A DNA stretch of 64,000 nucleotides. Origin: Pseudomonadota bacterium. Its GTDB lineage: Bacteria; Desulfobacterota; Binatia; Binatales; Binataceae. The stretch is from assembly GCA_021323945.1 (NCBI GenBank), contig JAJPKA010000014.1:1-64000 (forward strand), read 5' to 3'. Made by a program: the position numbers and the translations under genes. This document shows positions 43,598 through 58,174 of this stretch, piece after piece (within the stretch, counting starts at the first letter, position 1; every line of letters starts with the position of its first letter). The notes under the pieces are model-generated. The model was not told the origin of the DNA and ran no database searches. It was given only the letters and a program-made list of their open reading frames with translations.

Positions 43598-44272
43598 GTG
43601 AGTGCGCAAGTGGTAACTGAGGGTGTATCGCGCCCGGGTTCTGGTGAATCGCGAGCCCAGGATTCGCGCGATGAAATCCTGAGAGCTGCCACAGATTTGT
43701 TTGCGACTCGCGGCTTTCACGAGACCTCAATGGCAGAAGTGGCACGGAGCGCGGGGGTCAGCAAAGCACTCATCTTCTGGCATTTTAAGAACAAAGAAGA
43801 ACTGTTCGTCGCCGTTCTCGGTAAGTTGCTGGAGCCCTACGTGATCGATTTCGCCGAGGAGTCCGGTGCGCTCGATGAAAAGTCCCAGCTGCTAAAGCTT
43901 ATCGAATCCTATTTACAGTTTGTGCGCGAAAACGCGAATTCGATCAGGTTTCTAGTCGCCCAGATTTTGCGCGACGAGGCGGGCCATGACTCCTTGTCAA
44001 GTCAGGTGCTCTCATTGTTCGAGGGCTACCGGAGCCTGGTGACTGAGTTGATTGCGCGGGCGCAGGCCAAGGGAATATGCGCCTGCAATGTTCCTCCGCC
44101 CGAGGCGGCGGGCTTCTTGCTGGCCGCACTTAATGGACTGCTCATAGGCCGCCTGTTCCTCGGTAGCGGGACGACGGATCTCGATACCGGGGGGAAGATG
44201 CTGCAGCAATGGCTCTTTGGGGATAAGCTGGGATTCGCGCAGACTCCCCAATTCATGAATCCGGACAAGTAG
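43598..44272 (+). CDS. TetR/AcrR-family regulator at the head of the hopanoid locus
   Basis: A 224-residue protein from a GTG at 43598. The N-terminal TetR helix-turn-helix is clear: ILRAATDLFATRGFHETSMAEVARSAGVSKALIFWHFKNKEELF in outline, about residues 27-71. A helical ligand-binding domain follows. The stop lies only 17 bp before hpnH, so it is probably in the same transcript and likely regulates the hopanoid genes. That role is inferred from position. Its effector is unknown. Confidence 0.85.
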   Translation: MSAQVVTEGVSRPGSGESRAQDSRDEILRAATDLFATRGFHETSMAEVARSAGVSKALIFWHFKNKEELFVAVLGKLLEPYVIDFAEESGALDEKSQLLKLIESYLQFVRENANSIRFLVAQILRDEAGHDSLSSQVLSLFEGYRSLVTELIARAQAKGICACNVPPPEAAGFLLAALNGLLIGRLFLGSGTTDLDTGGKMLQQWLFGDKLGFAQTPQFMNPDK

Positions 44273-44289: not shown

Positions 44290-45288
44290 ATGCGGATGCC
44301 TCTCAAACAGATGCTCGATCTTGGGCTCTATATACGCCGGAAAAGACGGGCGGGCGAAAAGTATTTTCCCTTGGTGCTGATGCTCGAGCCTTTACATGCC
44401 TGCAATCTCGCGTGTGTTGGTTGCGGGCGGATCGTCGAATACAAAGATACGATTCGCGACCAAATGCCGCTGGAAGAGGCGTTGGCTTCAGCAGAAGAAG
44501 CAGGTGCTCCAATCGTCTCCATTTGTGGTGGCGAGCCCCTGATGTACAAACATATTGTGCCCTTGACTAACGGGCTGATGGCACAAAAGCGCCACGTAAT
44601 GATTTGTACCAACGCCCTGCTGCTCGAAAGGTTTGTGAAACAAGTCCCGCCGAATCCCTATCTCAGTTTCAATATTCATCTGGACGGTATGCGTCAGACG
44701 CACGACCGTTTGGTCGACCGCCCCGGCGTATTCGACGTTTGTGTGCGGATGATCAAGCTGCTCAAGAGCCGGGGCTATCGGGTGCAAACCAACTCAACCA
44801 TCTATCGAGAGACCAGCGAGGAAGAAGTAGAAGAACTGATAAGATTCCTCGGTGAGCTGGGCGTGGATGGGATGCTGCTGACCCCTGGTTACCATTACCA
44901 GGTCCTGCAGAACGACATCTATCTCAGCAAAGAGGAGATGCCGCGCAAGTTCAAGAGAGTCCGCGACCTGGCTCTCGACTACAAGATCATTAATACACCG
45001 ATCTACCTTGACTACCTTATCGGCGAACGCGATCTGTTGTGCAGTCCATGGACCACAGTGACTCGTAATCCTCGGGGCTGGAAGGGTCCGTGCTATCTCA
45101 TAACCAATGGTCATTACCGGAGCTTTGCAGAGTTGCACCAAGCTACTGATTGGGAGTTTTACCGGACAAAACAGGATGTTCGCTGCCGTGACTGCAAACT
45201 ACATTCGGGATTTGAGGGCACGGTCGCATTGGAGTTTGGCAAAAGCTTCAAGGATTCCTGGCGCATGATGCGTCACTACCTGGCTTAA
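44290..45288 (+). CDS. hpnH: Adenosylhopane synthase, radical SAM
   Basis: A 332-residue protein of the HpnH family. The radical-SAM cluster motif CxxxCxxC is at Cys38, Cys42 and Cys45 (ACNLACVGC). It also has the GGEPLM block and the HpnH-type ends QDVRCRDCKLHSGFEG with further cysteines. The enzyme adds the 5'-deoxyadenosyl radical to diploptene, the first step to extended (C35) hopanoids. It is the first enzyme gene after the TetR gene in the locus. Confidence 0.95.
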   Translation: MRMPLKQMLDLGLYIRRKRRAGEKYFPLVLMLEPLHACNLACVGCGRIVEYKDTIRDQMPLEEALASAEEAGAPIVSICGGEPLMYKHIVPLTNGLMAQKRHVMICTNALLLERFVKQVPPNPYLSFNIHLDGMRQTHDRLVDRPGVFDVCVRMIKLLKSRGYRVQTNSTIYRETSEEEVEELIRFLGELGVDGMLLTPGYHYQVLQNDIYLSKEEMPRKFKRVRDLALDYKIINTPIYLDYLIGERDLLCSPWTTVTRNPRGWKGPCYLITNGHYRSFAELHQATDWEFYRTKQDVRCRDCKLHSGFEGTVALEFGKSFKDSWRMMRHYLA

Positions 45289-45477: not shown

Positions 45478-46437
45478 ATGCATCCTAAGCCGTTATCCGA
45501 TCCACCTGCCGTTGATCACCCAAAAGCTGCGATTGATGGTAGTAGCCTTGATCTTGGTGATTATCTCAAAGATCGTGCGGGCTTGGTCGAACGCCACCTA
45601 AGCGCCTGCCTGGACGCGGCGAAGGCGCCGGTCGGCCGTCTCCAGGAAGCGATGCGTTACAGTCTGATGGCCGGTGGCAAACGTTTGCGCCCTATTCTGG
45701 CCTTGGCTGCGTGTGAGGCGGTTGGCGGCGAAATCGAGAGCGTATTGGGCTACGCCTGCGCGCTCGAGATGATTCATACCTATTCGTTAATCCACGACGA
45801 CTTGCCCTGTATGGACGATGACGATCTTCGACGGGGCCGCCCGACCAACCATAAGGTCTTTGGAGAGGCGATAGCGACCCTTGCCGGAGATGGTCTACTT
45901 ACTGATGCGTTTGCTCTGATTGCCCGTTCGGCCAAGCAGGCCGGGGTGCCAGCGGAATTGATTGTCGATACAATCGCCGAGCTGGCCGAGGCTTGCGGTT
46001 CATCGGGGATGGTGGGCGGCCAAGCCATCGACTTATTGACAGAAGGTCAGCGTCTGAGCCAGTCGGAACTTGAACTGCTGCACGGCATGAAAACCGGGGC
46101 ACTGTTCGTAGCCGCCGTCTGCGGCGGAGCACGATTGGGCGGCGCCGGTCCTGCCCAGCTGCGTGCCCTGCACAACTACGGTAGTGCCTTGGGCCTGGCG
46201 TTCCAGGTGACTGACGATTTGCTCGACGTTGTGCAGACGACTGATCATTTGGGCAAGCGCTCGCAAAAGGATCAGGAACGGGGCAAAGCCACCTATCCGT
46301 CAATTCTGGGTGTCGAGGAGGCCCGGTTGCGGGCACAGCAGCTCGCCCAACAGGCGCGTGAGGCTCTGACCTCTTTCGATAGTCGGGCGGACCCTTTGCG
46401 GATGCTCGCGCAATTTGCTGTGGAGCGCAGTCTGTGA
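45478..46437 (+). CDS. ispA: Polyprenyl diphosphate synthase (farnesyl diphosphate synthase type)
   Basis: A 319-residue trans-prenyltransferase. The first Asp-rich motif HDDLPCMDDDDLRRGRPT is near residues 106-122, and the second is QVTDDLLDVVQ near 243. MAGGKRLRPIL also fits. Residues before the first motif suggest a short-chain product, so farnesyl diphosphate is likely; this supplies the squalene enzymes encoded downstream. Geranylgeranyl diphosphate cannot be excluded from sequence alone. It starts at 45478, 190 bp after hpnH, and is followed after 28 bp by the zinc dehydrogenase. Confidence 0.93.
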   Translation: MHPKPLSDPPAVDHPKAAIDGSSLDLGDYLKDRAGLVERHLSACLDAAKAPVGRLQEAMRYSLMAGGKRLRPILALAACEAVGGEIESVLGYACALEMIHTYSLIHDDLPCMDDDDLRRGRPTNHKVFGEAIATLAGDGLLTDAFALIARSAKQAGVPAELIVDTIAELAEACGSSGMVGGQAIDLLTEGQRLSQSELELLHGMKTGALFVAAVCGGARLGGAGPAQLRALHNYGSALGLAFQVTDDLLDVVQTTDHLGKRSQKDQERGKATYPSILGVEEARLRAQQLAQQAREALTSFDSRADPLRMLAQFAVERSL

Positions 46438-46465: not shown

Positions 46466-47509
46466 GTGATCACTTCCGAGCAAACACGACAGGCGGTGCT
46501 GCTCGAACCTGGTCGCCTGGAGATGCGACAGGTGAGACCGCCACGCCCAGGGCCCGGTGAGCTTGTCCTGCAGGTTAAGTGCGCGATGACATGTGGGACC
46601 GACTTGAAGGCTTATCGCCGAGGGCATCCGATGTGGCCGGTGCCGACCCCATTCGGCCACGAATTCGCTGGGATCGTCGCCGAAGTCGGGCCGGGAGTCG
46701 ACACGTTTCGACCGGGTGACGAGTTGATGGCGGCGCCGACCGCCCCCTGTGGTGAGTGCTTTTTCTGTCGCAGGGGGCAGGAGAATCTTTGCGCCCAGAC
46801 AATGGAGAAGATGGTTCTGGGTGCTTACGCTGATTATCTTTTAGTTGGCGCCCACGTTGTCGGACGCAATGCCTTTCGCAAGCCTCCTGAGTTGTCATTT
46901 GAGGAGGCCGCCTTGCTTGAGCCGCTCGCCTGTGTTGTCCATGCGCAGAGTTTGGCATGTCCGGCGGCATCGGAAAGCGTCCTAATCATAGGTGCCGGAC
47001 CGTTTGGTCTGCTGCACATGCTCTTGCTCAGGGCGCGAGGTGTTCGCGAGATCACGGTTGCGGGGCGGGGAGCGCAGCGTCTCGAATGGGCTCGGCAGCT
47101 TGGCGCTGATCTTGTTGTTGATGTCACTCAGGCCGCTGCAGAACGGATGATATCGAGCCTCAATGATGGCTACGGCCCCGATCTCGTGATCGAATGCACC
47201 GGGCAGGTCTCAGGATGGACGGATGCGGTCGCCCGAGTGCGGCGCGGGGGGCGGGTGGTCTTCTTTGGCGGCTGCCCGTTAAACACCTCGATCGCGCTCG
47301 ATACGCGCCGGATGCACTACGACAACCTCACGCTCCTGTCGCCCTTTCATTACCGACCCGTGGACGTGGAGCAGGCTTATGAGCTGTTGTGTCGAGGTAC
47401 GGTCAGTGCCGCCAGGATTGTGACCGCTCGCAGGCCACTAAGCGAGTTGGGCTCGATATTCGAGATGCTGCAAAGCGGTACCGTTTTAAAGTGCGCGGTA
47501 ATCCCCTAG
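46466..47509 (+). CDS. Zinc-containing medium-chain dehydrogenase of unknown role in the hopanoid locus
   Basis: A 347-residue MDR protein from a GTG at 46466. The catalytic-zinc motif has TCGTDLKAY and GHEFAGIVAEVG, and the structural-zinc Cys cluster is GECFFCRRGQENLC. The Rossmann motif GAGPFGLLHMLLL binds NAD(P). Its relatives include sorbitol and threonine dehydrogenases. It lies between the prenyl synthase and shc and is co-directional, so an alcohol or sugar linked to the hopanoid side chain is a plausible substrate. This is inference; it is not a known hpn gene. Confidence 0.85.
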   Translation: MITSEQTRQAVLLEPGRLEMRQVRPPRPGPGELVLQVKCAMTCGTDLKAYRRGHPMWPVPTPFGHEFAGIVAEVGPGVDTFRPGDELMAAPTAPCGECFFCRRGQENLCAQTMEKMVLGAYADYLLVGAHVVGRNAFRKPPELSFEEAALLEPLACVVHAQSLACPAASESVLIIGAGPFGLLHMLLLRARGVREITVAGRGAQRLEWARQLGADLVVDVTQAAAERMISSLNDGYGPDLVIECTGQVSGWTDAVARVRRGGRVVFFGGCPLNTSIALDTRRMHYDNLTLLSPFHYRPVDVEQAYELLCRGTVSAARIVTARRPLSELGSIFEMLQSGTVLKCAVIP

Positions 47510-47560: not shown

Positions 47561-49522
47561 ATGCATGGCGCCGAAATAACTCCTCAAGCCGGTTCGCCGG
47601 ATGTTTCACCGCGTGACGAATTTGGTGCAAGGCTGGCTTTCGCCATCAGGCGTGCCCAGGAATGGTTGATCGAGCGGCAGCATCCCGAAGGTTACTGGCA
47701 GGCCGCGCTCGAGGCTAATGGCGAAATGAACGCCGAATTCATCATCTTCAATCGCTTCATGGGTGTCGATCCCGAACCCGCCCTCGACGCGCGACTCAAA
47801 AAACATCTGCTCGACATTCAACAGCCGGATGGTTCGTGGGCGTTGTTCCCTGGAGCCGAGGGCCATCTGTCGACCACCATTGAAGCATATTTCGCTCTGA
47901 AACTCGTTGGCATGCGAGCCGGTGACGAGCCAATGATGCGCGCTCGACGCTGGGTTCTTGCGCGAGGCGGTATCGCACGAGCCGGAACTTTGGCGCGTTT
48001 TTATCTGGCGGCGATGAACCAGGTGCCATGGGATGCAACACCCGTGCTGCCGGTTGAATTGGTTCTGTTGCCAAGCTGGTTCCCGTTCAACATGTACGAG
48101 CTCTCATCGTGGGCCCGAGGAACGCTCTTCGCACTGATGGTGCTACAGGCCCAGAGACCCACCGTATCGGTGGACTGGCGCCAGGGCGTGCTTGAGCTTT
48201 ACGTACAACCGCCGCACTTTACCAAGTTTAAGCTGCCGCGCGGAGCGAGACTTCTGTCGCTCCGAAATGCACTGTTGGTTAGCGACAAGCTATTGCGCTG
48301 GTATGACCGCAGCCATCATCCGCGATTGCGTGAGCGTGCGCTGCGCCATGCCGAGCAGTGGTTGCTGGAACACCAGGATGCCAATGGGTCATGGGGCGGG
48401 ATCGAGCCCTGTTATCTGCTGAGTCCAATGGCATTGAAGGCCCTCGGCTACCGAAACCATCATCCGGTGATTGCGAAGGCGCTCTCAGCAGTACGGGAAC
48501 TGATCTGGGACTACGGCGACTCAATTCTCTACCAACCGTGCGTGTCACCTAACTGGGATACGGCATTGGCGGCAAAAGCACTGCTCGACTCGGGGATGAG
48601 CGCGCAGCATTCCGCCCTGCGGGCCGCTGCCAAGTGGCTGCTGGATCATCAAATCTTCAGACGCGGCGATTGGGCGATCAAGCGTCCCAACCTGGCGCCA
48701 GGTGGTTGGGCGTTCGAATTCTTTAATGATTGGTACCCGGATGTAGATGACTCAGCGGTAATCCTGATGGTACTGGCGCGTGCAGCCTGTGACGATGAAG
48801 CTCGCCGCCAGTTATCTGTGAAAGCCGGTGCAAACTGGGTTATGGGCATGCAGTCCAAAAATGGTGGGTTTGCAGCCTTTGACCCTGACAATGACGCGCA
48901 ATGGCTCAATCATGTGCCATTTGCTGACGTCGAAGCCTCGACCGACCCGCCCTGCGCTGATTTGACCGGCAGAGTCTTGGAGATGATGGCGGAAGTGGGT
49001 TACACCGCCGCTCACCCTGTCGCCCGCCGTGCTATCGCCTGGCTCAAACACGACCAAAAACCGGATGGTTCGTGGTGGGGAAGATGGGGTGTTTGCTACA
49101 TCTATGGAACCTTCTCGGCGCTTTCCGGTTTGCGCGCCATTGGTTTGAATGTCACCGAACCATGGATACGGCGGGCGGTTGAATGGCTCAAGTCGGTACA
49201 AAATCCTGACGGCGGCTGGGGTGAGACCTGTGCCGCCGATCGCGACCCGGCCCTAAAGGGCAAGGGGCGTAGTACGGCGTCACAAACTGCATGGGCCGTA
49301 ATCGGATTGCTCGCGGGCGAGGATGAGCTCAGCGAATCGCTGATCAGAGGGGTCCAGTGGTTGCTCGAGCATCAGACCCCAGAGGGTAGTTGGGAAGAAG
49401 CCGAATTCACCGGCACAGGTTTTCCCAACCATTTTTACCTTCGCTACCACATGTATGCCCATTACTTTCCCCTGATGGCACTAGGGCGCCTGAGACGGCG
49501 GCTAGCGGGGACGGCCATGTAA
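47561..49522 (+). CDS. shc: Squalene-hopene cyclase
   Basis: A 653-residue enzyme with the catalytic DVDD motif at 394-397 (middle Asp396 is the acid) in NDWYPDVDDSAV. Several QW-type repeats are visible (for example QQPDGSWALFPG, KPDGSWWGRWG, NPDGGWGETC). The double alpha-barrel organisation fits, and so does its length. It cyclises squalene to hopene and diplopterol in one step at the inner membrane. A single copy is here. It is followed after 14 bp by dxr. Confidence 0.97.
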   Translation: MHGAEITPQAGSPDVSPRDEFGARLAFAIRRAQEWLIERQHPEGYWQAALEANGEMNAEFIIFNRFMGVDPEPALDARLKKHLLDIQQPDGSWALFPGAEGHLSTTIEAYFALKLVGMRAGDEPMMRARRWVLARGGIARAGTLARFYLAAMNQVPWDATPVLPVELVLLPSWFPFNMYELSSWARGTLFALMVLQAQRPTVSVDWRQGVLELYVQPPHFTKFKLPRGARLLSLRNALLVSDKLLRWYDRSHHPRLRERALRHAEQWLLEHQDANGSWGGIEPCYLLSPMALKALGYRNHHPVIAKALSAVRELIWDYGDSILYQPCVSPNWDTALAAKALLDSGMSAQHSALRAAAKWLLDHQIFRRGDWAIKRPNLAPGGWAFEFFNDWYPDVDDSAVILMVLARAACDDEARRQLSVKAGANWVMGMQSKNGGFAAFDPDNDAQWLNHVPFADVEASTDPPCADLTGRVLEMMAEVGYTAAHPVARRAIAWLKHDQKPDGSWWGRWGVCYIYGTFSALSGLRAIGLNVTEPWIRRAVEWLKSVQNPDGGWGETCAADRDPALKGKGRSTASQTAWAVIGLLAGEDELSESLIRGVQWLLEHQTPEGSWEEAEFTGTGFPNHFYLRYHMYAHYFPLMALGRLRRRLAGTAM

Positions 49523-49536
49523 ACTTGAGGATACCA

Positions 49537-50712
49537 ATGAAGTCCATCGCAATCCTCGGCTCTACGGGATCGGTTGGCAAAACTACTTTGGACATCGTGA
49601 GCCGGTTCCCCGATCGCTTCCGCGTGGTCGCGATGGCGGCCGGCAGTAACGTCGAGCTGTTGTCGGAACAGGTTCAACGCTTCGACCCGGAACTGGTGTC
49701 GGTTGCGACTCCCGAACTCGCAATTGAACTGGCAGCGCGCGTTAGGCCCAAGCGTCCCACTGTCCTCTATGGTAATGACGGTGCGGTGGCTGTCGCGACT
49801 CATCCGAAGGCTGAACTGGTAATGTCGGCAATGGTGGGTGCGCTAGGCCTGCGACCAACGCTCTCTGCAATCCGCAGTGGCAAAGACATCGCCTTCGCCA
49901 ATAAGGAGGTGCTGGTCGTCGCGGGTGAGTTGGTGACACGGGCGGTGCGCGACAGCGGCGTGCGGCTGCTTCCGGTTGACAGCGAACACAACGCGATTTT
50001 CCAGTGTCTCCAGGGCAGGCCTGCCGACACTGTCAAGCGGGTAATTCTCACGGCTTCAGGTGGACCATTCCGACAATGGCCAGCGGAAAGATTCGCGTGC
50101 ATTACAGTCGAAGACGCGCTGAAGCATCCGACGTGGCAGATGGGCAATAAGATTACAATCGATTCCGCGACTCTCATGAACAAGGGGCTTGAGGTTATCG
50201 AAGCGCACTGGCTCTTCAACCTCGAAGCCGAGCAGATTTCGGTGTTGATTCATCCTCAAAGTATCGTCCACTCGATGGTGGAGATGGTGGATGGAGCTGT
50301 TATTGCGGAAATGGCGATAACCGACATGGCGATTCCGGTCGCCTTCGCGCTGGCTTATCCGGAGCGTCTTGAGTTGGGCCATCTCAAGCCGTTGTCTCTG
50401 CTCGATCATGACCATCTGGCGTTCGAAGAGCCCGACCTGAATCGGTTTCCCTGCCTCAGGTTAGGTTATGAAGCGCTGCGTGCCGGCGGCACCATGGCGG
50501 CCTGCCTGAACGCAGCAAACGAAGAGCTGGTTGCCGGGTTTCTTGCAGGCCAAACCAGGTTTGTAGACATACCTCGCCATCTGGAAACAGTGATGCTTCG
50601 TCATCACAATTCTGCGGCGCATTCCCTCGAAGATTTCCTGGAAGCCGATCAGTGGGCACGAACCATGGCGCATGAACTGATGGGGACCAGGCCCCGACGG
50701 TTTTGGGCGTGA
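49537..50712 (+). CDS. dxr: 1-deoxy-D-xylulose-5-phosphate reductoisomerase
   Basis: A 391-residue MEP-pathway enzyme from the ATG at 49537 with TTGAGG upstream. NADPH-binding GSTGSVGKTTLDIV, the substrate and metal block KDIAFANKEVLV with LPVDSEHNAIFQCLQG, and TIDSATLMNKGLEVIEAHWLF are all in place. It makes 2-C-methylerythritol 4-phosphate, feeding isoprenoid supply. Its presence inside a hopanoid locus suggests that precursor flow is co-controlled with hopanoid synthesis. Its TGA overlaps the GTG start of hpnC (GTGA). Confidence 0.97.
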   Translation: MKSIAILGSTGSVGKTTLDIVSRFPDRFRVVAMAAGSNVELLSEQVQRFDPELVSVATPELAIELAARVRPKRPTVLYGNDGAVAVATHPKAELVMSAMVGALGLRPTLSAIRSGKDIAFANKEVLVVAGELVTRAVRDSGVRLLPVDSEHNAIFQCLQGRPADTVKRVILTASGGPFRQWPAERFACITVEDALKHPTWQMGNKITIDSATLMNKGLEVIEAHWLFNLEAEQISVLIHPQSIVHSMVEMVDGAVIAEMAITDMAIPVAFALAYPERLELGHLKPLSLLDHDHLAFEEPDLNRFPCLRLGYEALRAGGTMAACLNAANEELVAGFLAGQTRFVDIPRHLETVMLRHHNSAAHSLEDFLEADQWARTMAHELMGTRPRRFWA

Positions 50713-51659
50713 ACGGTCAGTTCAAACACGTGAGCGATCATCTGTCGCAGGCCCGACCTGCGATCGCGCCTGCGGCCGGTGGTGAATGGGGCGCGGCTCT
50801 GCGAGCGCCAAACGAATTTTCGGAAGTGGCGGCCGCTTACGCCTGGTGTACGAAGCTGGCCCGCTCACATTATGAGAATTTCACCATCGCCTCGTGGCTG
50901 ATGCCGCGGCAGATGCGCCGGCATGTTCATGCTATTTACGCCTTTGCCCGGATCGCCGACGATTTCGCAGATGAACAGCACAGCCTTGCGCGATTGGACG
51001 AATGGCAGCGGGAGCTGGAACTGGCCTACGACGGGGCGCCGCGTCACCCGGTGATGGTGGCTCTGGCTGACACGGTAAAACGTTTCGCTATTCCACCGGA
51101 CCCTTTCCTGGATCTGCTCACGGCCTTTCGTTCGGATGTCAACTTCCGTGGATTCGAGACGATGGCGGATCTGCTGGGCTACACCCGTTGTTCCGCGAAT
51201 CCGGTCGGACGCTTGGTGCTTTATCTTTTCGGCTTCCGCGATCCCGAGCGCCAGCGCTTGTCGGACTTGATCTGCACTGGGCTACAACTCGCCAATTTTT
51301 GGCAGGACGTTGCTATCGACATTGCGAAAGGTCGAATCTACTTTCCACGCCAGGACATGGAACAGTATTCGGTTACGGACGCGGATCTGCGCGAGGGGCG
51401 AGTAACGGCGGAGTTCATTGAACTGATGCGGCACGAGGTTTTGCGGGCCCGCGAAATGCTGTTGGCTGGATCAGCCTTGAGTACTCTCGTCGGGCCCGAT
51501 TTGCGCCGCGATGTCCTGATGTTTGCCGGTGGTGGACTGGCGATTCTGCGCGCCATCGAACGCGCCCGTTATGATGTGTTCCACGCGCGTCCCAAGCTCA
51601 CCAGGCTGGACTATCTCAGATTGGGATGGCACGCGGTGGGTGGGCGCCTGCGCCTCTGA
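50709..51659 (+). CDS. hpnC: Hydroxysqualene synthase (HpnC)
   Basis: About 316 residues from a GTG at 50709 overlapping the dxr stop. It belongs to the squalene/phytoene synthase fold. Asp-rich motifs are ARIADDFADEQ and DVAIDIAKGRIYFP. HpnC takes presqualene diphosphate, formed by HpnD, to hydroxysqualene. Assigned as HpnC rather than HpnD by sequence style and order (C before D). The next gene, hpnD, begins 20 bp downstream. Confidence 0.92.
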   Translation: MNGQFKHVSDHLSQARPAIAPAAGGEWGAALRAPNEFSEVAAAYAWCTKLARSHYENFTIASWLMPRQMRRHVHAIYAFARIADDFADEQHSLARLDEWQRELELAYDGAPRHPVMVALADTVKRFAIPPDPFLDLLTAFRSDVNFRGFETMADLLGYTRCSANPVGRLVLYLFGFRDPERQRLSDLICTGLQLANFWQDVAIDIAKGRIYFPRQDMEQYSVTDADLREGRVTAEFIELMRHEVLRAREMLLAGSALSTLVGPDLRRDVLMFAGGGLAILRAIERARYDVFHARPKLTRLDYLRLGWHAVGGRLRL

Positions 51660-51678
51660 AAACAGCCTGGAGTCTGAC

Positions 51679-52551
51679 ATGACTGCGAGTCAGGCGCACG
51701 AAGCGGACTACCGCCGGTGTGCGGAAATAACGCGCCGCGCATCTTCGAACTTTTACTACGCGTTCATGTTATTGCCATTCGAGCGGCGCCGTGCGCTCTA
51801 TTCAGTCTATGCCTTCTGTCGGTTCATCGACGATATCGCCGACACTGACGGTGTGAGCAACCCGGCGGAGATGCTGACGCGCTGGCGCGAGGAACTGGAT
51901 AGAGTCTTCAGGGGCTCACCCTCGCGAGCGATCTCGCGGGCGCTTAGCGAGAGCGTCCACCGCTTTAATATTCCCCGACAACACTTCGAGGACGTAATAG
52001 ACGGGGTCGAAATGGATCTGACGCGTCGGCGATATCCAACCTTCGACGAACTGCAGCTCTATTGCCGTCGCGTTGCATCAGCGGTCGGGCTGATTTGCAT
52101 CGAGATTTTCGGTTATCGGAATCCCTCTGCCCGACGTTATGCCGAATATCTGGGTATGGCCTTTCAGCTGACCAATATCATTCGCGACGTAGGTGAGGAC
52201 GCGGCGCGCGGGCGGATTTATTTGCCGCTCGAAGATCTTGCCCGATTCCAGGTTTCCGAGGCTGAGATCCTCAATTCTGTATATGGGGAGCGCTTCCGCA
52301 AGTTAGCGGCATTTGAAGCGCAACGTGCCCGCCTATACTACCGGGAAGCAGAACAGGCTTTGGCTCAGGAAGATCGCCTGTCGATGCTCCCTGCAGAAGG
52401 GATGAGGCTGATCTATGCGAGATTGCTGGAACGCATCGCCCGTGGCGGTTATCGGGTGTTGGACCATCGCATCACGCTCTCGGCTCCGCACAAGCTCTAT
52501 CTGATCGGGCGGGCATGGGCTGGAAGCCGTTTTCGACGGTCTCTGAATTAG
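51679..52551 (+). CDS. hpnD: Presqualene diphosphate synthase (HpnD)
   Basis: A 290-residue protein from the ATG at 51679. The substrate-binding Asp motifs are RFIDDIADTDG and DVGEDAARGRIYLP, with SVYAFCRF, typical of the HpnD branch. It condenses two farnesyl diphosphates to presqualene diphosphate. The HpnCDE route to squalene replaces the eukaryotic single enzyme. About 40 bp separate it from hpnE. Confidence 0.93.
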   Translation: MTASQAHEADYRRCAEITRRASSNFYYAFMLLPFERRRALYSVYAFCRFIDDIADTDGVSNPAEMLTRWREELDRVFRGSPSRAISRALSESVHRFNIPRQHFEDVIDGVEMDLTRRRYPTFDELQLYCRRVASAVGLICIEIFGYRNPSARRYAEYLGMAFQLTNIIRDVGEDAARGRIYLPLEDLARFQVSEAEILNSVYGERFRKLAAFEAQRARLYYREAEQALAQEDRLSMLPAEGMRLIYARLLERIARGGYRVLDHRITLSAPHKLYLIGRAWAGSRFRRSLN

Positions 52552-52593: not shown

Positions 52594-53952
52594 GTGCACC
52601 AGCCTGACATAGTCATCATCGGCGGCGGCTTCGCCGGTTTGAGTGCCGCTGTAGCTTTGGCCGAAAGAGGACTCGGCGTCACGCTGCTCGAGGCCAAACC
52701 AACGCTGGGCGGACGGGCTTATTCCTTTGAAGATGCGGAGAGTGGCGACCTGGTCGACAACGGCCAGCATGTGATGATGGGTTGTTATCATGAGACGCTG
52801 GATTTTCTCGACAAGATCGGGACCCGCGACCGACTGATTGTTCAACGTGATCTCGAAATTGAGGTGCTTGATGGGCCGGGGCGCCCCGCGCTACTCAAGA
52901 CTGCAGCATTGCCTGGACCTTTTCATATCGCTGCAGGAGTTATGCGTTACAAGCATCTGTCCCTCCGTGAGCGACTCGGAGTGCTGAGCGCAGGACTGCG
53001 ACTCCTGCATATGCGGCGTTTTGCCCCTGACCAGCTGAGGCGGATGACCGTTGCCGAATTCATGACGGCGACCGCCCAGGGCGAGCAGGCGCGGCGGACA
53101 TTCTGGCATCCCCTGGCGGTTGCGACGCTCAACGAGCAGCCCGAATTGGCCTCCGCGGCCTTGCTCGCGCAAGTGCTCAAGCGCGCATTTTTTGCGCGCC
53201 GCGCCGATTCGGCCTTCCTGTATCCGAGGGTGGGGCTAAGCGATCTTTATTGCGCCGCCGCGCGAGAATTTATTGAAAGGCATGGTGGCCAGGTCGCAAG
53301 CCACCGAATCGTCGATCGGCTGGAGTTCACCGACGGCCTCATATCCGGAATACGGCTCCGCGACGGAACTGGCTTGCGGGCCTCCTATGTTATCGCTGCA
53401 GTCCCGCCGCCTCAGCTATGCCGATTACTACCGGATACCATTGCGCGCGACCAGTTTTTTGCGCGCATCGAGGGACTTAAAAGTTCACCCATCATCTGCC
53501 TCCATGTATGGCTCGATCGGGAAGTTACTAATTCAGCATTTGTGGGTTTCGTGGGCACGGTGACTCAGTGGCTGTTTAACAAGCGCCGTATCTTTCGTCG
53601 ACACGGAGCCCGGCATCCTGGATACCTTAGCTTCGTGATCAGCGGTGCCAGCGAATTGGCTGATCTCCCGAACGATGAGCTGCTTAAGATGGTCATGAGC
53701 GACCTGCGTGCAATGGTACCAGCGGCGCGGTCTGCGCGGCTCATAAAGGCGCTTGTGCTGAAGGAGAAACATGCAACGTTTGCACCCGATCCTGTTTCTG
53801 ATGCGGCCCGGCCAACCGTCAAAACCGTCGTGCCAAATCTTTATTTGGCTGGCGACTGGATTCAGACGGGTCTGCCGGCAACGATCGAGAGTGCAGTGAT
53901 TGCCGGACGCTCAGCCGCCGCGGCTATCCAAAGGCGTATAACCAATAGTTGA
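52594..53952 (+). CDS. hpnE: Hydroxysqualene reductase (HpnE), FAD-dependent
   Basis: A 452-residue protein from a GTG at 52594. The FAD-binding GGGFAGLSAAVALAERG is at the N-terminus and the family end LYLAGDWIQTGLPATIESAVIAGRSAA is intact. HpnE reduces hydroxysqualene to squalene. The previous annotation name, squalene-associated FAD-dependent desaturase, refers to the same family. Its TGA overlaps the ATG of hpnA (TGATG). Confidence 0.95.
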   Translation: MHQPDIVIIGGGFAGLSAAVALAERGLGVTLLEAKPTLGGRAYSFEDAESGDLVDNGQHVMMGCYHETLDFLDKIGTRDRLIVQRDLEIEVLDGPGRPALLKTAALPGPFHIAAGVMRYKHLSLRERLGVLSAGLRLLHMRRFAPDQLRRMTVAEFMTATAQGEQARRTFWHPLAVATLNEQPELASAALLAQVLKRAFFARRADSAFLYPRVGLSDLYCAAAREFIERHGGQVASHRIVDRLEFTDGLISGIRLRDGTGLRASYVIAAVPPPQLCRLLPDTIARDQFFARIEGLKSSPIICLHVWLDREVTNSAFVGFVGTVTQWLFNKRRIFRRHGARHPGYLSFVISGASELADLPNDELLKMVMSDLRAMVPAARSARLIKALVLKEKHATFAPDPVSDAARPTVKTVVPNLYLAGDWIQTGLPATIESAVIAGRSAAAAIQRRITNS

Positions 53953-54953
53953 TGAGCACACGCGTCGCTCTCGTGACAGGGGCCAATGGTTTTGTGGGTT
54001 GCCATCTAGTGCGCGCCCTGCTTGCTCAAGGCATTTCCGTGCGCGCCCTGGTCCGCACAGATGCCGATCGGCGGGGGCTGGCGGGCTTGGACTGCGAGTT
54101 TGCTTTTGCCGACATCCGCGATCGTGAGGCAGTCGAGCGGGCCGTGCGCGGCTGTGAGTACGTCTATCACGTTGCGGCGGACTACCGGCTTTGGGTGGTG
54201 GATGAAACTGCTATGTTTGCCACGAATGTCGATGGCACGCGCAATGTCATTGCGGCCGCTCAAGCCGCCAAAGTCCGCCGTATAGTCCACACCAGCACCG
54301 TCGGTACCTTGGGAATCGGCGCCGACGGGATCGGCCGTGAAGATACCCCCGTGGGAGTCGAGATGATGGTGGGTGCCTATAAACGTTCGAAGTTCATGGC
54401 CGAGCGTGAAGCAATGAAGGCGGCACAGGCGGGAATCCCGGTTGTGATAGTCAACCCTTCAACACCGATCGGGCCCTATGATTACAAGCCGACCCCGACC
54501 GGACGGATCATCGTGGACTTTCTCCGCCGCCGGATGCCCGCCTATATCGATACCGGGTTAAATTTGGTTGCGGCGGAAGATTGTGCACGCGGCCACATAT
54601 TGGCTTGTGAGCAGGGCCGTATTGGTGAGAAGTACATCCTGGGCGGCGAAAACCTTACTTTAGAGGAGATGTTCGCGCGACTGTCGCGCCTCTCCGGAGT
54701 GCCCGCCCCGCGCGTGAGACTGCCGCTGACAGTTGCGTTCGGATTCGCGCTGGTGGCCGAGGCGGTCTCACGTACGCTTACTCATCGACCCCCGAGAGCC
54801 AGTCTTACCGAGGTCAGAATGGCCCGCAAGAAAATGTTCTTCGACTCATCGAAAGCCTCGATGGAATTAGGATACCGGCCTGGTCCCATCGATGATGCCT
54901 TACGCAGAGCTATTGAATTCTTCCGAACTCACGGCTATGTCGGCGACTGCTGA
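53952..54953 (+). CDS. hpnA: Hopanoid-associated sugar epimerase/dehydratase (HpnA)
   Basis: A 333-residue SDR protein from the ATG at 53952. The NAD motif GANGFVGCHLVRALL is near the N-terminus, and the catalytic Tyr-Lys pair is in GAYKRSKFMAE. HpnA proteins act on sugar nucleotides in hopanoid locus contexts, though their exact reaction is not well settled. Its TGA shares a base with the ATG of the CruF-like gene, so the two are coupled. Confidence 0.9.
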   Translation: MSTRVALVTGANGFVGCHLVRALLAQGISVRALVRTDADRRGLAGLDCEFAFADIRDREAVERAVRGCEYVYHVAADYRLWVVDETAMFATNVDGTRNVIAAAQAAKVRRIVHTSTVGTLGIGADGIGREDTPVGVEMMVGAYKRSKFMAEREAMKAAQAGIPVVIVNPSTPIGPYDYKPTPTGRIIVDFLRRRMPAYIDTGLNLVAAEDCARGHILACEQGRIGEKYILGGENLTLEEMFARLSRLSGVPAPRVRLPLTVAFGFALVAEAVSRTLTHRPPRASLTEVRMARKKMFFDSSKASMELGYRPGPIDDALRRAIEFFRTHGYVGDC

Positions 54954-55855
54954 TGTATCTGCTGCTTTCAACGATCGCATTGCGCCCCTACGTCTTTGTT
55001 TTCCTAGTCGCCTTCTTGCTCATATCGATCAGTAATTTTGGTGTCCGTACGACCTTACTGTTCTCGCTCCTGACGTACTCTATAGGCTTTCTCTGTGAAT
55101 ACAGTTCGGTGCACAACGGATTCCCATTTGGTTTGTACCACTACGTTGAAGCTACGCGAGGCAAAGAGCTATGGGTGTTCGGCATTCCCTTCTTTGATTC
55201 GATTTCATACACATTTCTGGCATTTGCCAGTTATACGGTTGCGCTCTTACTATGCTCGCCGCTTTATCGACAAGGTTGGGATCTGCGAGTGCTCGATACC
55301 TGGCAGATTCGGCGTTCGCCCCGTGTCTGGTTGATGGCGGCGATGTTGATGGTAATGGTTGATCTGGTGGTTGACCCCTTGAGCGTGCTGGGTGAGCACT
55401 GGTTTTTGGGAAAGATTTTCTGGTACGACCCACCGGGCCCTCACTTCGGGGTTCCCATTAGCAACTATTTGGGCTGGTTCTTAGTAGCAGCCGCCAGCAT
55501 CGGAGCTTTCCAGATGCTCGATTACGGGCTTAACCGTGGGCCTGGCAAACCGCTCGGTGTCGTGACCGCCATCCCCTCTCGTGCGCTGCTGGGACCGCTG
55601 CTCTATGGCGGTATCGTCACGTTCGCGATTACGATGCTTTTCATGATTCATGCCGCTCATATTGCGTGGGCGAGCGTTTTCATCTTCCTGCCGTTTGTGG
55701 CTATGCTTTTGCACACGATGACACGAGCCGAATCCTATGGCAGCGACGAGGCTATCTCGCGACATCTAGCGGATTTTCCCTTCAATCGCGACCGATTTGA
55801 CCCTGCTGTGATGGCTCGCTCGTGTTCGTTGAGCGCGGCACCCGGCACCGATTGA
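54953..55855 (+). CDS. CruF/DUF422-like multi-pass membrane protein coupled to hpnA
   Basis: A 300-residue protein with about seven hydrophobic helices, starting at an ATG that overlaps the hpnA stop. It resembles carotenoid 1,2-hydratase-type proteins (CruF, DUF422): FLCEYSSVHNGFPFGLYHYVE in the first part and DLVVDPLSVLGEHW in the second carry the polar motifs in membrane context (Glu, His, Asp). CruF adds water to a terminal isoprene double bond. Here the neighbours make hopanoids, so a hydration or related reaction on squalene, hopene or a carotenoid is plausible. Function unproven. Confidence 0.75.
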   Translation: MYLLLSTIALRPYVFVFLVAFLLISISNFGVRTTLLFSLLTYSIGFLCEYSSVHNGFPFGLYHYVEATRGKELWVFGIPFFDSISYTFLAFASYTVALLLCSPLYRQGWDLRVLDTWQIRRSPRVWLMAAMLMVMVDLVVDPLSVLGEHWFLGKIFWYDPPGPHFGVPISNYLGWFLVAAASIGAFQMLDYGLNRGPGKPLGVVTAIPSRALLGPLLYGGIVTFAITMLFMIHAAHIAWASVFIFLPFVAMLLHTMTRAESYGSDEAISRHLADFPFNRDRFDPAVMARSCSLSAAPGTD

Positions 55856-55949: not shown

Positions 55950-56366
55950 CTAATTGACGCGTTCGAGCACTACCACCGGAATCTGGCGCGTGGTCTTTTT
56001 TTGATAATCGTAAAAAATGTTCATTCTGTCGGCCTGGAGCTTGAAAAGCCGATCTCGTTCTTCACCACTGACAATCCGCGCTCGCGCCTCAAACCGTTGC
56101 GTCCCGACCTCGACTGTCACCATTCGATTAGCCTCGGGGTTGCAAAACCAGGCCGGATTGTGCGGTGAACCAGCAAAGGACGCGATTACAAAAATCCGGT
56201 CGCCGTCCTGGGAATAAGCCAGCGGCTTCGTTATCTTGCGACCAGTCTTCCTCCCCGTTGTGGTCAGGAGGAGTAGCGGAACCCCTTCCATCTGGCCACC
56301 CACCTTGCCCTGGTTGGCGCGAAACTCAGCAATAACCTTCTGATTGAACTCGTTTAATTCCGACAT
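55950..56366 (-). CDS. Ddn-type (deazaflavin-dependent nitroreductase) family protein
   Basis: A 138-residue protein from the ATG at 56366, with GGAGGAAAA just upstream. The motif LLTTTGRKTGRKITKPL and HNPAWFCNPEAN, then VEVGTQRFEARARIV, are characteristic of F420-binding split-barrel proteins related to mycobacterial Ddn. It probably reduces quinones or fatty acids with reduced F420; the substrate is unknown. Its 3' end faces the CruF-like gene. The frame is open far upstream, but only the part from 56366 matches the family. Confidence 0.88.
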   Translation of the reverse strand: MSELNEFNQKVIAEFRANQGKVGGQMEGVPLLLLTTTGRKTGRKITKPLAYSQDGDRIFVIASFAGSPHNPAWFCNPEANRMVTVEVGTQRFEARARIVSGEERDRLFKLQADRMNIFYDYQKKTTRQIPVVVLERVN

Positions 56367-56494
56367 GTTTTCCTCCCGGACCGAACCTCGATTGGTCTCG
56401 CGAACAGCCTCATACAAAGACAGGCAGTATGGCAAGCGACTCGCCCGAGCCAGAGGGACCTGACAGCATGATCGCTGGTCGAGCTGAGTCACAT

Positions 56495-58174
56495 TCAATG
56501 TGTGACGGCAGTCGACGCTTGAGGTCGGGCACTTTGAAACAATGTGAAAGACGGTATGGTCATCAGCGCGATTACTGCCAGCATGCGGTAGATATCGTTG
56601 AAAGCTAACATGGCTGATTGTTGCTGGACGACGTGGTACACCAGCCCCAATCCCTGATGTTGTCCAGTTACCAGCTGTTCGACGTAACGAAATGACGGGG
56701 AGCCGGGCAAATAAGTGCCTGCGTTGCTGATCCGCCATGCATCAAACACCGAGAAATGCTCGACGAGATAAGATTGATGCACCTGCTGATGACTCAGCAG
56801 CATATTGGTCAGGTAGGCAATTCCTACGGCCGCGCCGGTATTACGCGTCATGTTGTAGAGGCTCGCCGCGTAGCCCATCTTTTCGCGTTGAATGCACGAT
56901 AGCGCCGCTGCTGACAGGATCGGGAAGCTCAATCCCAGACCCGCGCCAAGAATGAAGCTATCAAACATCAGTCGTGCCATACTGACATCGAGGTCCCAGC
57001 CGCTCATCCGCCATAAGGCGTAAGCCACAATGGCGAAAGCGACACCGATGAGCCGGCGGTTATCGTATCCGGCGCGCGCGATTTGACCCGCCAGCAACAT
57101 CGAGGCCATGCCGGCGATTGCGCGTGGCAGCATTACAAGTCCGGCACGCCAGGCGGTATAACCCATAAATTCCTGGAGAAAGACCGGATTGAGAAATCCA
57201 CTCCCGAAGAGAATAAAACTGAGCAGCACCACCACGACCACAGCCGACGAAAACTGGCGGACTTTTAAGATGTGAAGTTCGATTATTGGCTCCGGAAATC
57301 GCAGTTCGTGAAAAATGAGCAGGACCATTGCCAGTCCCGAAAAGCTGGTTGCCCAAATTACCCAGGCCGAGCTGAACCAATCGGCACGCTGTCCGCGATC
57401 ACAGACGATTTGCAACAGCCCTAACCACACCACCAGGCAAACAATGCCCAACCAGTCGATCTTGCTCCCCTCGCGGCGGCGGCCAATATATGCCGGATCG
57501 TGCACGAACGCGGAAACCATGATCAGGGCGGCGATGCCGATCGGAACGTTGATGTAGAAGTTCCAGCGCCAGTTCCAATTGTCCGTGATCCATCCGCCCA
57601 GGGTCGGCCCGACGACCGGGGCCACCATCATGCCAACTCCCCAGGTTGCCATCGCCAGTTGTTGCTCTTCAGGCGGAAAGGTCTCCATCATTATGGCCTG
57701 GGATGACGGCACCATCGCCGCACCCGCCAGCCCTTGAACCAGTCGGAAAACAATCATCTCACCGAGGCTCTGCGCTGCACCGCACACTGCCGAGGCGCAG
57801 ACGAAGCTCAACAACGATAATATGAAGTAGCGCTTGCGTCCGAACCGGGCCGAAATCCATCCCGTCATCGGGATCATGATTCCATTCGCGACCAGATAGC
57901 TGGTAACGACCCACGCGATTTCGTCAACGCTAGCGGAAAATGAGCCCTGCATGTGGGGCAGCGATACGTTCACTATGGTCGAGTCGAGGACTTCGAGAAT
58001 CGGTCCCAGGATCACCGAGATGGCGATTACCCACTTGTGAGGCGCCGCAGCGGGCCGATGCTCAAGCTTGTGCCTCTGCGACGTGTCGTTGCGCGGCGAG
58101 TCAGCTCCCGCCATCTCGCCGGCGCTATTTAATTTGCTCTCGAGAGTTCGGCTGTTTGGTGCCGCAGCAGTCAT
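56495..58174 (-). CDS. DHA2-type (EmrB/QacA) multidrug efflux transporter
   Basis: About 559 residues from the ATG at 58174; a TTG five codons upstream would overlap the stop of the upstream tetR gene. The helix-1 motif ILEVLDSTIVNVSLPHM and motif A GWISARFGRKRYF are those of 14-helix MFS drug exporters. The N-terminal 45 residues are a polar tail. It is in tandem with a TetR-type repressor, the usual arrangement for inducible efflux. The drug or metabolite is unknown. Confidence 0.92.
   Translation of the reverse strand: MTAAAPNSRTLESKLNSAGEMAGADSPRNDTSQRHKLEHRPAAAPHKWVIAISVILGPILEVLDSTIVNVSLPHMQGSFSASVDEIAWVVTSYLVANGIMIPMTGWISARFGRKRYFILSLLSFVCASAVCGAAQSLGEMIVFRLVQGLAGAAMVPSSQAIMMETFPPEEQQLAMATWGVGMMVAPVVGPTLGGWITDNWNWRWNFYINVPIGIAALIMVSAFVHDPAYIGRRREGSKIDWLGIVCLVVWLGLLQIVCDRGQRADWFSSAWVIWATSFSGLAMVLLIFHELRFPEPIIELHILKVRQFSSAVVVVVLLSFILFGSGFLNPVFLQEFMGYTAWRAGLVMLPRAIAGMASMLLAGQIARAGYDNRRLIGVAFAIVAYALWRMSGWDLDVSMARLMFDSFILGAGLGLSFPILSAAALSCIQREKMGYAASLYNMTRNTGAAVGIAYLTNMLLSHQQVHQSYLVEHFSVFDAWRISNAGTYLPGSPSFRYVEQLVTGQHQGLGLVYHVVQQQSAMLAFNDIYRMLAVIALMTIPSFTLFQSARPQASTAVTH

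Follow-up and report, generated by a model that had tools for sequence, protein, structure and literature searches.

Hopanoids, the chief stand-ins for sterols in bacteria, leave fossils in the form of hopanes. Why should an operon for their synthesis end in a gene that the Pfam database files under carotenoid biosynthesis? The question is raised by a stretch of 64,000 nucleotides (the window) of contig JAJPKA010000014.1, from the genome of a soil bacterium of the Binataceae (Binatota). The gene, a member of family PF04240, occupies positions 54953-55855 of the forward strand and reads from an ATG start as an open reading frame (ORF) of 300 amino acids. We favour, with a probability of about 60%, the reading that it and its close relatives encode an integral-membrane enzyme of the hopanoid pathway with acid chemistry like that of CruF, and not a carotenoid hydratase. 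The protein probably represents an unrecognised step in hopanoid making, and it travels with hopanoid genes in several unrelated bacterial groups. This reading is built on (i) the separation of a hopanoid-locus clade from other PF04240 proteins, (ii) its pairing with squalene-hopene cyclase (SHC), (iii) its adjacency to hpnH or an hpnG-like gene, (iv) the residues that the clade keeps, and (v) the absence of the phytoene desaturase family (CrtI) above cut-off in most hosts.

The initial annotation had described a CruF/DUF422-like membrane protein with polar residues in its membrane helices, starting one base inside the stop codon of hpnA, and on these points it was right. The hpnA stop TGA lies at 54951-54953 and the ATG at 54953-54955. 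PF04240 (Caroten_synth, formerly DUF422) is the sole Pfam family in the protein (77.2 bits; gathering score 25) and is matched by all 56 members of alignment A2. In a structure predicted from 56 sequences (mean predicted local distance difference test score 90.7, predicted template modelling score 0.89), E49, D82, D137, D141 and N171 lie within hydrophobic helices. The likeness stops at the family level: the protein falls under the cut-off of every CruF equivalog in NCBIfam (TIGR03460, NF045693 and NF041333), with 45.9 versus 154.7, 35.9 versus 400 and 34.3 versus 300 bits. The gene is single-copy in its genome, and tblastn of the protein against plasmids gave no match.

A clade apart and the genomes that carry it

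A tree of 79 rows shows the separation. Its 58 clade rows and two exceptional ones (L176 and L177) stand on one side of a branch of 1.7 changes per site, supported at 100/98, and 19 rows of carotenoid and other types stand on the other. Long outgroup branches leave relations outside the clade unsure, and the carotenoid-type set is small (five rows, on long branches). What the clade has in common with the other rows is a core of residues: all 58 clade rows and all 19 others have E49, G60, D137, W150, G174 and W175; D141 and N171 are likewise present in all 58, and each is missing from one of the 19. What sets the clade apart is a second group (Y13, T68, D82, S83, G147, F151 and L152) that never varies within it and is found in none of the 19 other rows, as well as a short insert carrying E72 and W74, which is missing from nearly all other rows. 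Among the best 80 of the 454 relatives returned by a genome_contigs search with the window protein, every locus has E49, D137 and D141, and 79 have N171, the remaining locus being truncated.

The two exceptional rows are placed in the clade by the tree and are treated as exceptions throughout. They come from Binatia without an SHC match (L176, 7851-8990, genome G057; L177, 7929-8786, genome G090) and carry D137Q, D141A, N171A and Y62H while keeping E49; the annotated neighbours of L176 are not hopanoid genes. Relaxed constraint after loss of a hopanoid substrate would be expected to leave such an apparent decay of the core, the two related rows counting as one event.

The 80 best relatives fall into 30 loci at 60-75% identity and 50 at 39-45%. 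The closest named relative is a Candidatus Binataceae protein (75% identity); six of the 30 close loci are titled Binataceae or Binatus and the others Deltaproteobacteria, Proteobacteria or bacterium, and from identity and the shared operon we assign all 30 to the Binatota. The 50 more distant loci belong mostly to Geobacter and its relatives, and also to Nitrosomonas, Nitrospirae and Nitrospinia. In the 50 host genomes of this more distant set (a list from which L106, one of the 30 close relatives, was kept out), SHC is above cut-off in 46 and CrtI in three.

Pairing with SHC is close in an even sample of 198 genomes from the phylum to which a Geobacter (G104) belongs. PF04240 is present in 31 of them and SHC in 31 (30 above cut-off), and both occur together in 22. 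When these PF04240 proteins were scored with a clade profile, A1, the members came out at 200 bits or higher and the rest at no more than 87. Two sequences, L002 and L003 (the same as L174 and L175), were included in A1, hence their scores near 200; the tree is independent of it. The clade is found in exactly the 22 PF04240 genomes with SHC, and the nine genomes with only other PF04240 types are all SHC-negative (Fisher 2e-22 for clade against SHC, kinship ignored). At least two of the 22 (G265 and G293) are Binataceae that also stand in the family set below, and extra PF04240 copies in three SHC-negative genomes (G186 on C99, G156 on C190, G229 on C19; Pfam 45-56 bits) were left out of the profile scoring.

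Within the window's own family, the genome of the window and 40 others make a set of 41. The PF04240 gene is present in 39, the contig ending within hpnA in both misses; SHC is matched in all 41 (40 above cut-off), HpnH in 40, and CrtI is above cut-off in none, the window's own genome included. Outside the family, PF04240 occurs in 10 of 55 Binatia genomes. In seven of these the clade member is intact; all seven genomes have SHC, and CrtI does not reach its cut-off in any. Another, G074, has a carotenoid-type PF04240 gene, is CrtI-positive and lacks an SHC match; the remaining two are the hosts of the exceptional rows, G057 also having CrtI above cut-off.

These counts speak to the suggestion in the initial annotation that the protein might have an independent carotenoid function, which the CrtI count of the family does not support. 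Its other proposal, a DUF422/PF04240 protein tied to hopanoid metabolism, is supported. The tree keeps the hopanoid-locus members together and apart from the carotenoid-type rows used, so that the placement inside true CruF which the annotation had named as refuting its idea was not seen; the profile comparison that it called for places the protein in PF04240 and outside all three CruF equivalogs. The same absence of CrtI above cut-off in 41 Binataceae genomes does not fit the prediction in PMC8262859 of lycopene for all Binatota orders, as it applies to that family. The terms cruF, squalene and hopan are absent from the main text of that paper, and it may have counted HpnC, HpnD and HpnE as carotenoid genes.

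PF04240 has further branches. Some genomes hold three to six matches that belong to another non-clade group (L180 in G302, with six on one contig; L118 in G221; L179 in G229; L181 in G156). The family also occurs on plasmids of Bradyrhizobium, Vibrio and Priestia (L190, L191 and L192), where an incomplete gene table shows no carotenoid gene within 3.5 kb; to judge from these plasmid-borne genes the carotenoid label of the family may be too narrow.

Gene neighbourhoods and the operon of the window

Across the phylum sample, all 22 clade loci stand beside hpnH or an hpnG-like gene. An hpnG-like gene lies within 3 kb in 17 of the 22, mostly convergent and less than 100 bases away (at L136 it is a partial match at the end of the stretch), and hpnH adjoins the clade gene in the other five. 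Nine comparison stretches around other PF04240 types (one each from eight of the nine SHC-negative genomes, and one around a second copy in G146) hold no SHC, HpnA, HpnH, HpnG, HpnJ or HpnK. The hpnG-like gene recurs within 3 kb in 30 of the 50 non-Binatota loci and downstream in 26 of the 30 Binatota loci, where an hpnK match is also found in 26. Among the seven other Binatia clade loci, hpnH is nearby in three.

The order of genes varies with lineage. Some have shc-hpnA-DUF116-hpnH-PF04240 followed by the hpnG-like gene on the opposite strand. A frequent order in Geobacter relatives is mlaE, mlaD, PF04240 and the hpnG-like gene, again on the opposite strand, in some cases with hpnJ and hpnK (the HpnJ and HpnK of L068 pass their cut-offs). 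A MlaD-type gene is directly upstream in 16 of the 50 non-Binatota loci and MlaE nearby in 15. A single reading frame in genome G060 joins the PF04240 protein to a LolA-like domain for the sorting of outer-membrane lipoproteins (L170, 3128-4897; PF17131, 149 bits), and an AsmA-type ORF lies upstream (L170, 1327-3312). The DUF116 protein between hpnA and hpnH in several lineages (L147 from 6089; L087, 8100-8963) is likewise without an assigned role.

In the window, the gene closes a run of hopanoid genes on the forward strand, whose HpnA, HpnH, SHC, HpnC, HpnD and HpnE each pass the NCBIfam cut-off:

43598-44272, +, TetR-family regulator ahead of the operon (PF00440)
44290-45288, +, hpnH, adenosyl-hopene transferase (380 bits versus 225)
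45478-46437, +, ispA, farnesyl diphosphate synthase (NF045485, 365 bits versus 275)
46466-47509, +, zinc-dependent alcohol dehydrogenase (PF08240/PF00107)
47561-49522, +, shc, squalene-hopene cyclase (750 bits versus 431)
49390-50712, +, putative dxr-like ORF inside the operon, named from its N-terminal signature; order kept in Binatota loci
50703-51659, +, hpnC (311 bits versus 250)
51523-52551, +, hpnD ORF, presqualene diphosphate synthase; true start probably within the ORF (326 bits versus 278.6)
52594-53952, +, hpnE, hydroxysqualene dehydroxylase (432 bits versus 283)
53952-54953, +, hpnA, NAD-dependent epimerase/dehydrogenase-like (HpnA, 465 bits versus 367.65)
54953-55855, +, PF04240 protein of the hopanoid-locus clade, 300 amino acids; last gene of the hopanoid operon

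The next gene 3' of the PF04240 gene, an F420H2-dependent quinone reductase at 55950-56738, is on the opposite strand, which makes the PF04240 gene the last of the run. In the window's genus, this reductase occupies the site where 26 of the 30 Binatota loci hold the hpnG-like gene. Promoter-like and terminator-like sites in the operon are not above shuffle level. The zinc alcohol dehydrogenase is kept in Binatota operons and is a second hopanoid-locus gene without an assigned role; it resembles ug2, which PMC5462960 places beside hpnC in hopanoid clusters of Acidobacteria.

The initial annotation had also presented the gene as translationally coupled to hpnA. The adjacency to hpnA is a feature of the window and its family and breaks down as a general rule: elsewhere the neighbours are mostly hpnH and the hpnG-like gene, and hpnA is often missing. 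In the family, 25 of 26 loci have hpnA immediately before the gene, and hpnE can be seen as well in 23; the exception (G018) has 3.9 kb between hpnA and the PF04240 gene. Of 29 other Binatota loci in which hpnA precedes the gene, 26 have the next start at a distance of no more than a few tens of bases and three at more than 100. The one-base overlap is specific to the window's genome, being found in none of the 29. Among the 55 Binatia genomes outside the family, HpnA occurs in nine and the clade in seven, never in one genome; other lineages hold both. A strict partnership with HpnA is thereby ruled out.

The proposed reaction and its competitors

The catalytic proposal starts from the residues common to the clade and the carotenoid 1,2-hydratases, which are thought to act by protonation. 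In the membrane, the buried acids E49, D137 and D141, with N171, would protonate an alkene or a tertiary alcohol, and by the same analogy water addition is plausible. Squalene and diploptene are such alkenes of the hopanoid pathway, and diploptene and diplopterol are both products of SHC. The putative site of action is the C22 end of the C30 hopene, and our first choice of reaction, put forward tentatively and as more doubtful than not, is the (de)hydration that would interconvert diploptene and diplopterol. It is suggested by the two products of SHC, by the position of the gene next to hpnH and by the use of diploptene by HpnH, which adds an adenosyl radical to it (PMC12583986); interconversion would thus feed or drain the HpnH substrate. 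A wider proposal is possible, at somewhat less than even odds: the clade would be an unrecognised hopanoid side-chain enzyme in several phyla, acting either on the diploptene/diplopterol balance before HpnH or on the step from ribosylhopane to bacteriohopanetetrol, with a fold distantly related to that of the sterol-binding Insig.

Several observations weigh against a hopanoid enzyme. SHC is often found without the clade: in 23 of 30 SHC-positive Binatia genomes outside the window's family, in nine of 31 in the phylum sample, and in 16 of 17 in a sample of 150 genomes of the Nitrosomonas order, where the clade occurs in one and another SHC-positive genome (G397) carries a different PF04240 type. 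With so many SHC-positive genomes lacking the gene, hopanoids in general do not depend on the step, and a universal hopanoid function is rejected. The reverse mismatch also occurs. Four of the 50 hosts (G106, G125, G135 and G145; 1.5-3.0 Mb, completeness not given) lack an SHC match and have a clade protein with an intact core, and the Binatia genome G053 carries the clade and no HpnH match. Adjacency has its own gaps: no hopanoid gene adjoins the clade gene in all seven Nitrosomonas loci and in four of the seven other Binatia loci (family f9), and the hpnG-like gene is not at the locus in the window or in L032 of the same genus. The hpnG-like proteins that were scored all fall below the HpnG cut-off of 187 bits and are called HpnG-like for that reason, HpnG being the best NCBIfam model in nine of 11. 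Finally, the MlaE and MlaD neighbours and the LolA-like fusion would fit transport too.

Transport is the basis of one competing explanation, in which the protein is no enzyme and instead binds hopanoids, either to deliver them to an export system or as their sensor in the membrane. Beyond the Mla-type neighbours and the G060 fusion with its AsmA-type gene upstream, it draws on structure. With the VIA aligner, the top match of the window model is the mycobacterial Insig homologue MvINS (Z 8.7, 139 of 189 residues, 2.6 Å; next row 5.7), and a second model, of a Nitrosomonas protein from an overlapping alignment, gives MvINS again (Z 8.3, 144 of 189 residues, 2.9 Å; next unrelated row 5.2). Insig binds sterols. 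Both scores, however, fall below the value of about 13 under which Z can be chance for helical bundles, and Foldseek gave no match at E <0.001 against PDB or viral models. At the level of sequence, no Insig model appears among the matches of the 56 members (E up to 10, with fast filters that drop weak matches), and no Insig chain or related solved chain was found from the A2 profile or from the window protein alone. The predicted Insig-like fold is thus a weak lead, suggestive at most, and the invariant residue core common with carotenoid hydratases is typical of an enzyme. We regard a trafficking protein as improbable.

A role after HpnG is unlikely, if somewhat less so. The protein would carry out the turnover of ribosylhopane to bacteriohopanetetrol or assist it as a membrane partner, and a soluble reductase, HpnA for example, might take part. 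Its most conserved neighbours, hpnH and the hpnG-like gene, are the two side-chain genes, and in the Binatia genus g34 the sole genome with hpnH (G058) has the clade, two with SHC and no hpnH match (G065 and G078) being without it. According to PMC12583986, the enzyme for the ribosylhopane step is not established, and HpnA, HpnB and HpnL have no assigned function either. Against this role, the Pfam scan of the window protein found no nucleotide-binding domain for reduction; in Binatia outside the window's family only six of 28 genomes with HpnH carry the clade, G053 has the clade alone, and HpnA is never its companion. Earlier in the pathway, (de)hydration of squalene or hydroxysqualene upstream of the cyclase has chemistry on its side: squalene is an acyclic C30 molecule with isopropylidene ends like lycopene, chemically the closest to CruF substrates, and hpnC, hpnD and hpnE share the operon of the window. 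Such a reaction would divert substrate from the cyclase, however, and the neighbours conserved across lineages are hpnH and the hpnG-like gene, not hpnCDE; we consider it very unlikely. Least credible of all is a true CruF, a carotenoid 1,2-hydratase that came into a hopanoid operon by chance. The Pfam name with its 77-bit match, the weak matches to three CruF equivalogs, the carotenoids predicted for Binatota in PMC8262859 and the pathway link drawn in PMC12654047 point that way, but the widely missed cut-offs, the separate clade and the CrtI counts (none of 41 family genomes, three of 50 other hosts) speak against it, and we reject it.

Known systems

The favoured reading, a membrane-bound hopanoid enzyme, can be set beside four known systems. 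The first is CruF itself (gamma-carotene 1'-hydratase and bisanhydrobacterioruberin hydratase), of the same Pfam family. E49, G60, D137, W150, N171, G174 and W175 are common to all five carotenoid-type rows, and position 141 is D in four and E in one; the clade differs in its scores below the equivalog cut-offs, its own place in the tree, its clade-only residues and E72/W74 insert, and its hopanoid instead of carotenoid neighbours. The Pfam name would label a conserved membrane gene as carotenoid biosynthesis in hosts mostly without CrtI above cut-off.

That label has already had an effect. PMC12654047 takes a domain named 'carotenoid biosynthesis protein', listed for the hopanoid-type cluster of Leptospirillum ferriphilum, as a carotenoid-hopanoid link, and in its account of the cluster it does not propose a hopanoid role for the protein. 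The cluster has the same Pfam-style label beside SHC, an epimerase/dehydratase, a B12-binding radical SAM enzyme, a glycosyl transferase and an EamA-type protein, and resembles the clade loci of Nitrospirae and Geobacter; the likeness is one of label and neighbours.

The clade gene shares operons and genomes with shc, hpnH, the hpnG-like gene, hpnA, hpnJ and hpnK, but none of the hpn genes named in PMC12583986 or PMC5462960 is described in their accounts of these genes as a PF04240 protein. PMC5462960 does report unidentified genes ug1 and ug3 beside hpnG and hpnH in Acidobacteria, either of which could be the clade protein. A literature search for hopanoid with cruF returned no paper, hopanoid with DUF422 matched only a mention of DUF4229, and none of the 30 matches listed out of 99 for PF04240/DUF422 concerned PF04240. 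Cultivated hosts (Geomonas, Oryzomonas, Geobacter and Nitrosomonas) make the role of the clade directly testable.

The Insig family offers a more distant comparison through bacterial MvINS (PDB 4xu4 and 4xu6), in the superpositions given above. Identity is 12-15%, no profile-level similarity was found, and extra C-terminal helices stand out in the comparison; the likeness may be no more than a common arrangement of helices. What sets the clade apart is the combination of a Pfam family and core residues shared with CruF and a probable place in a different pathway, that of the hopanoids.

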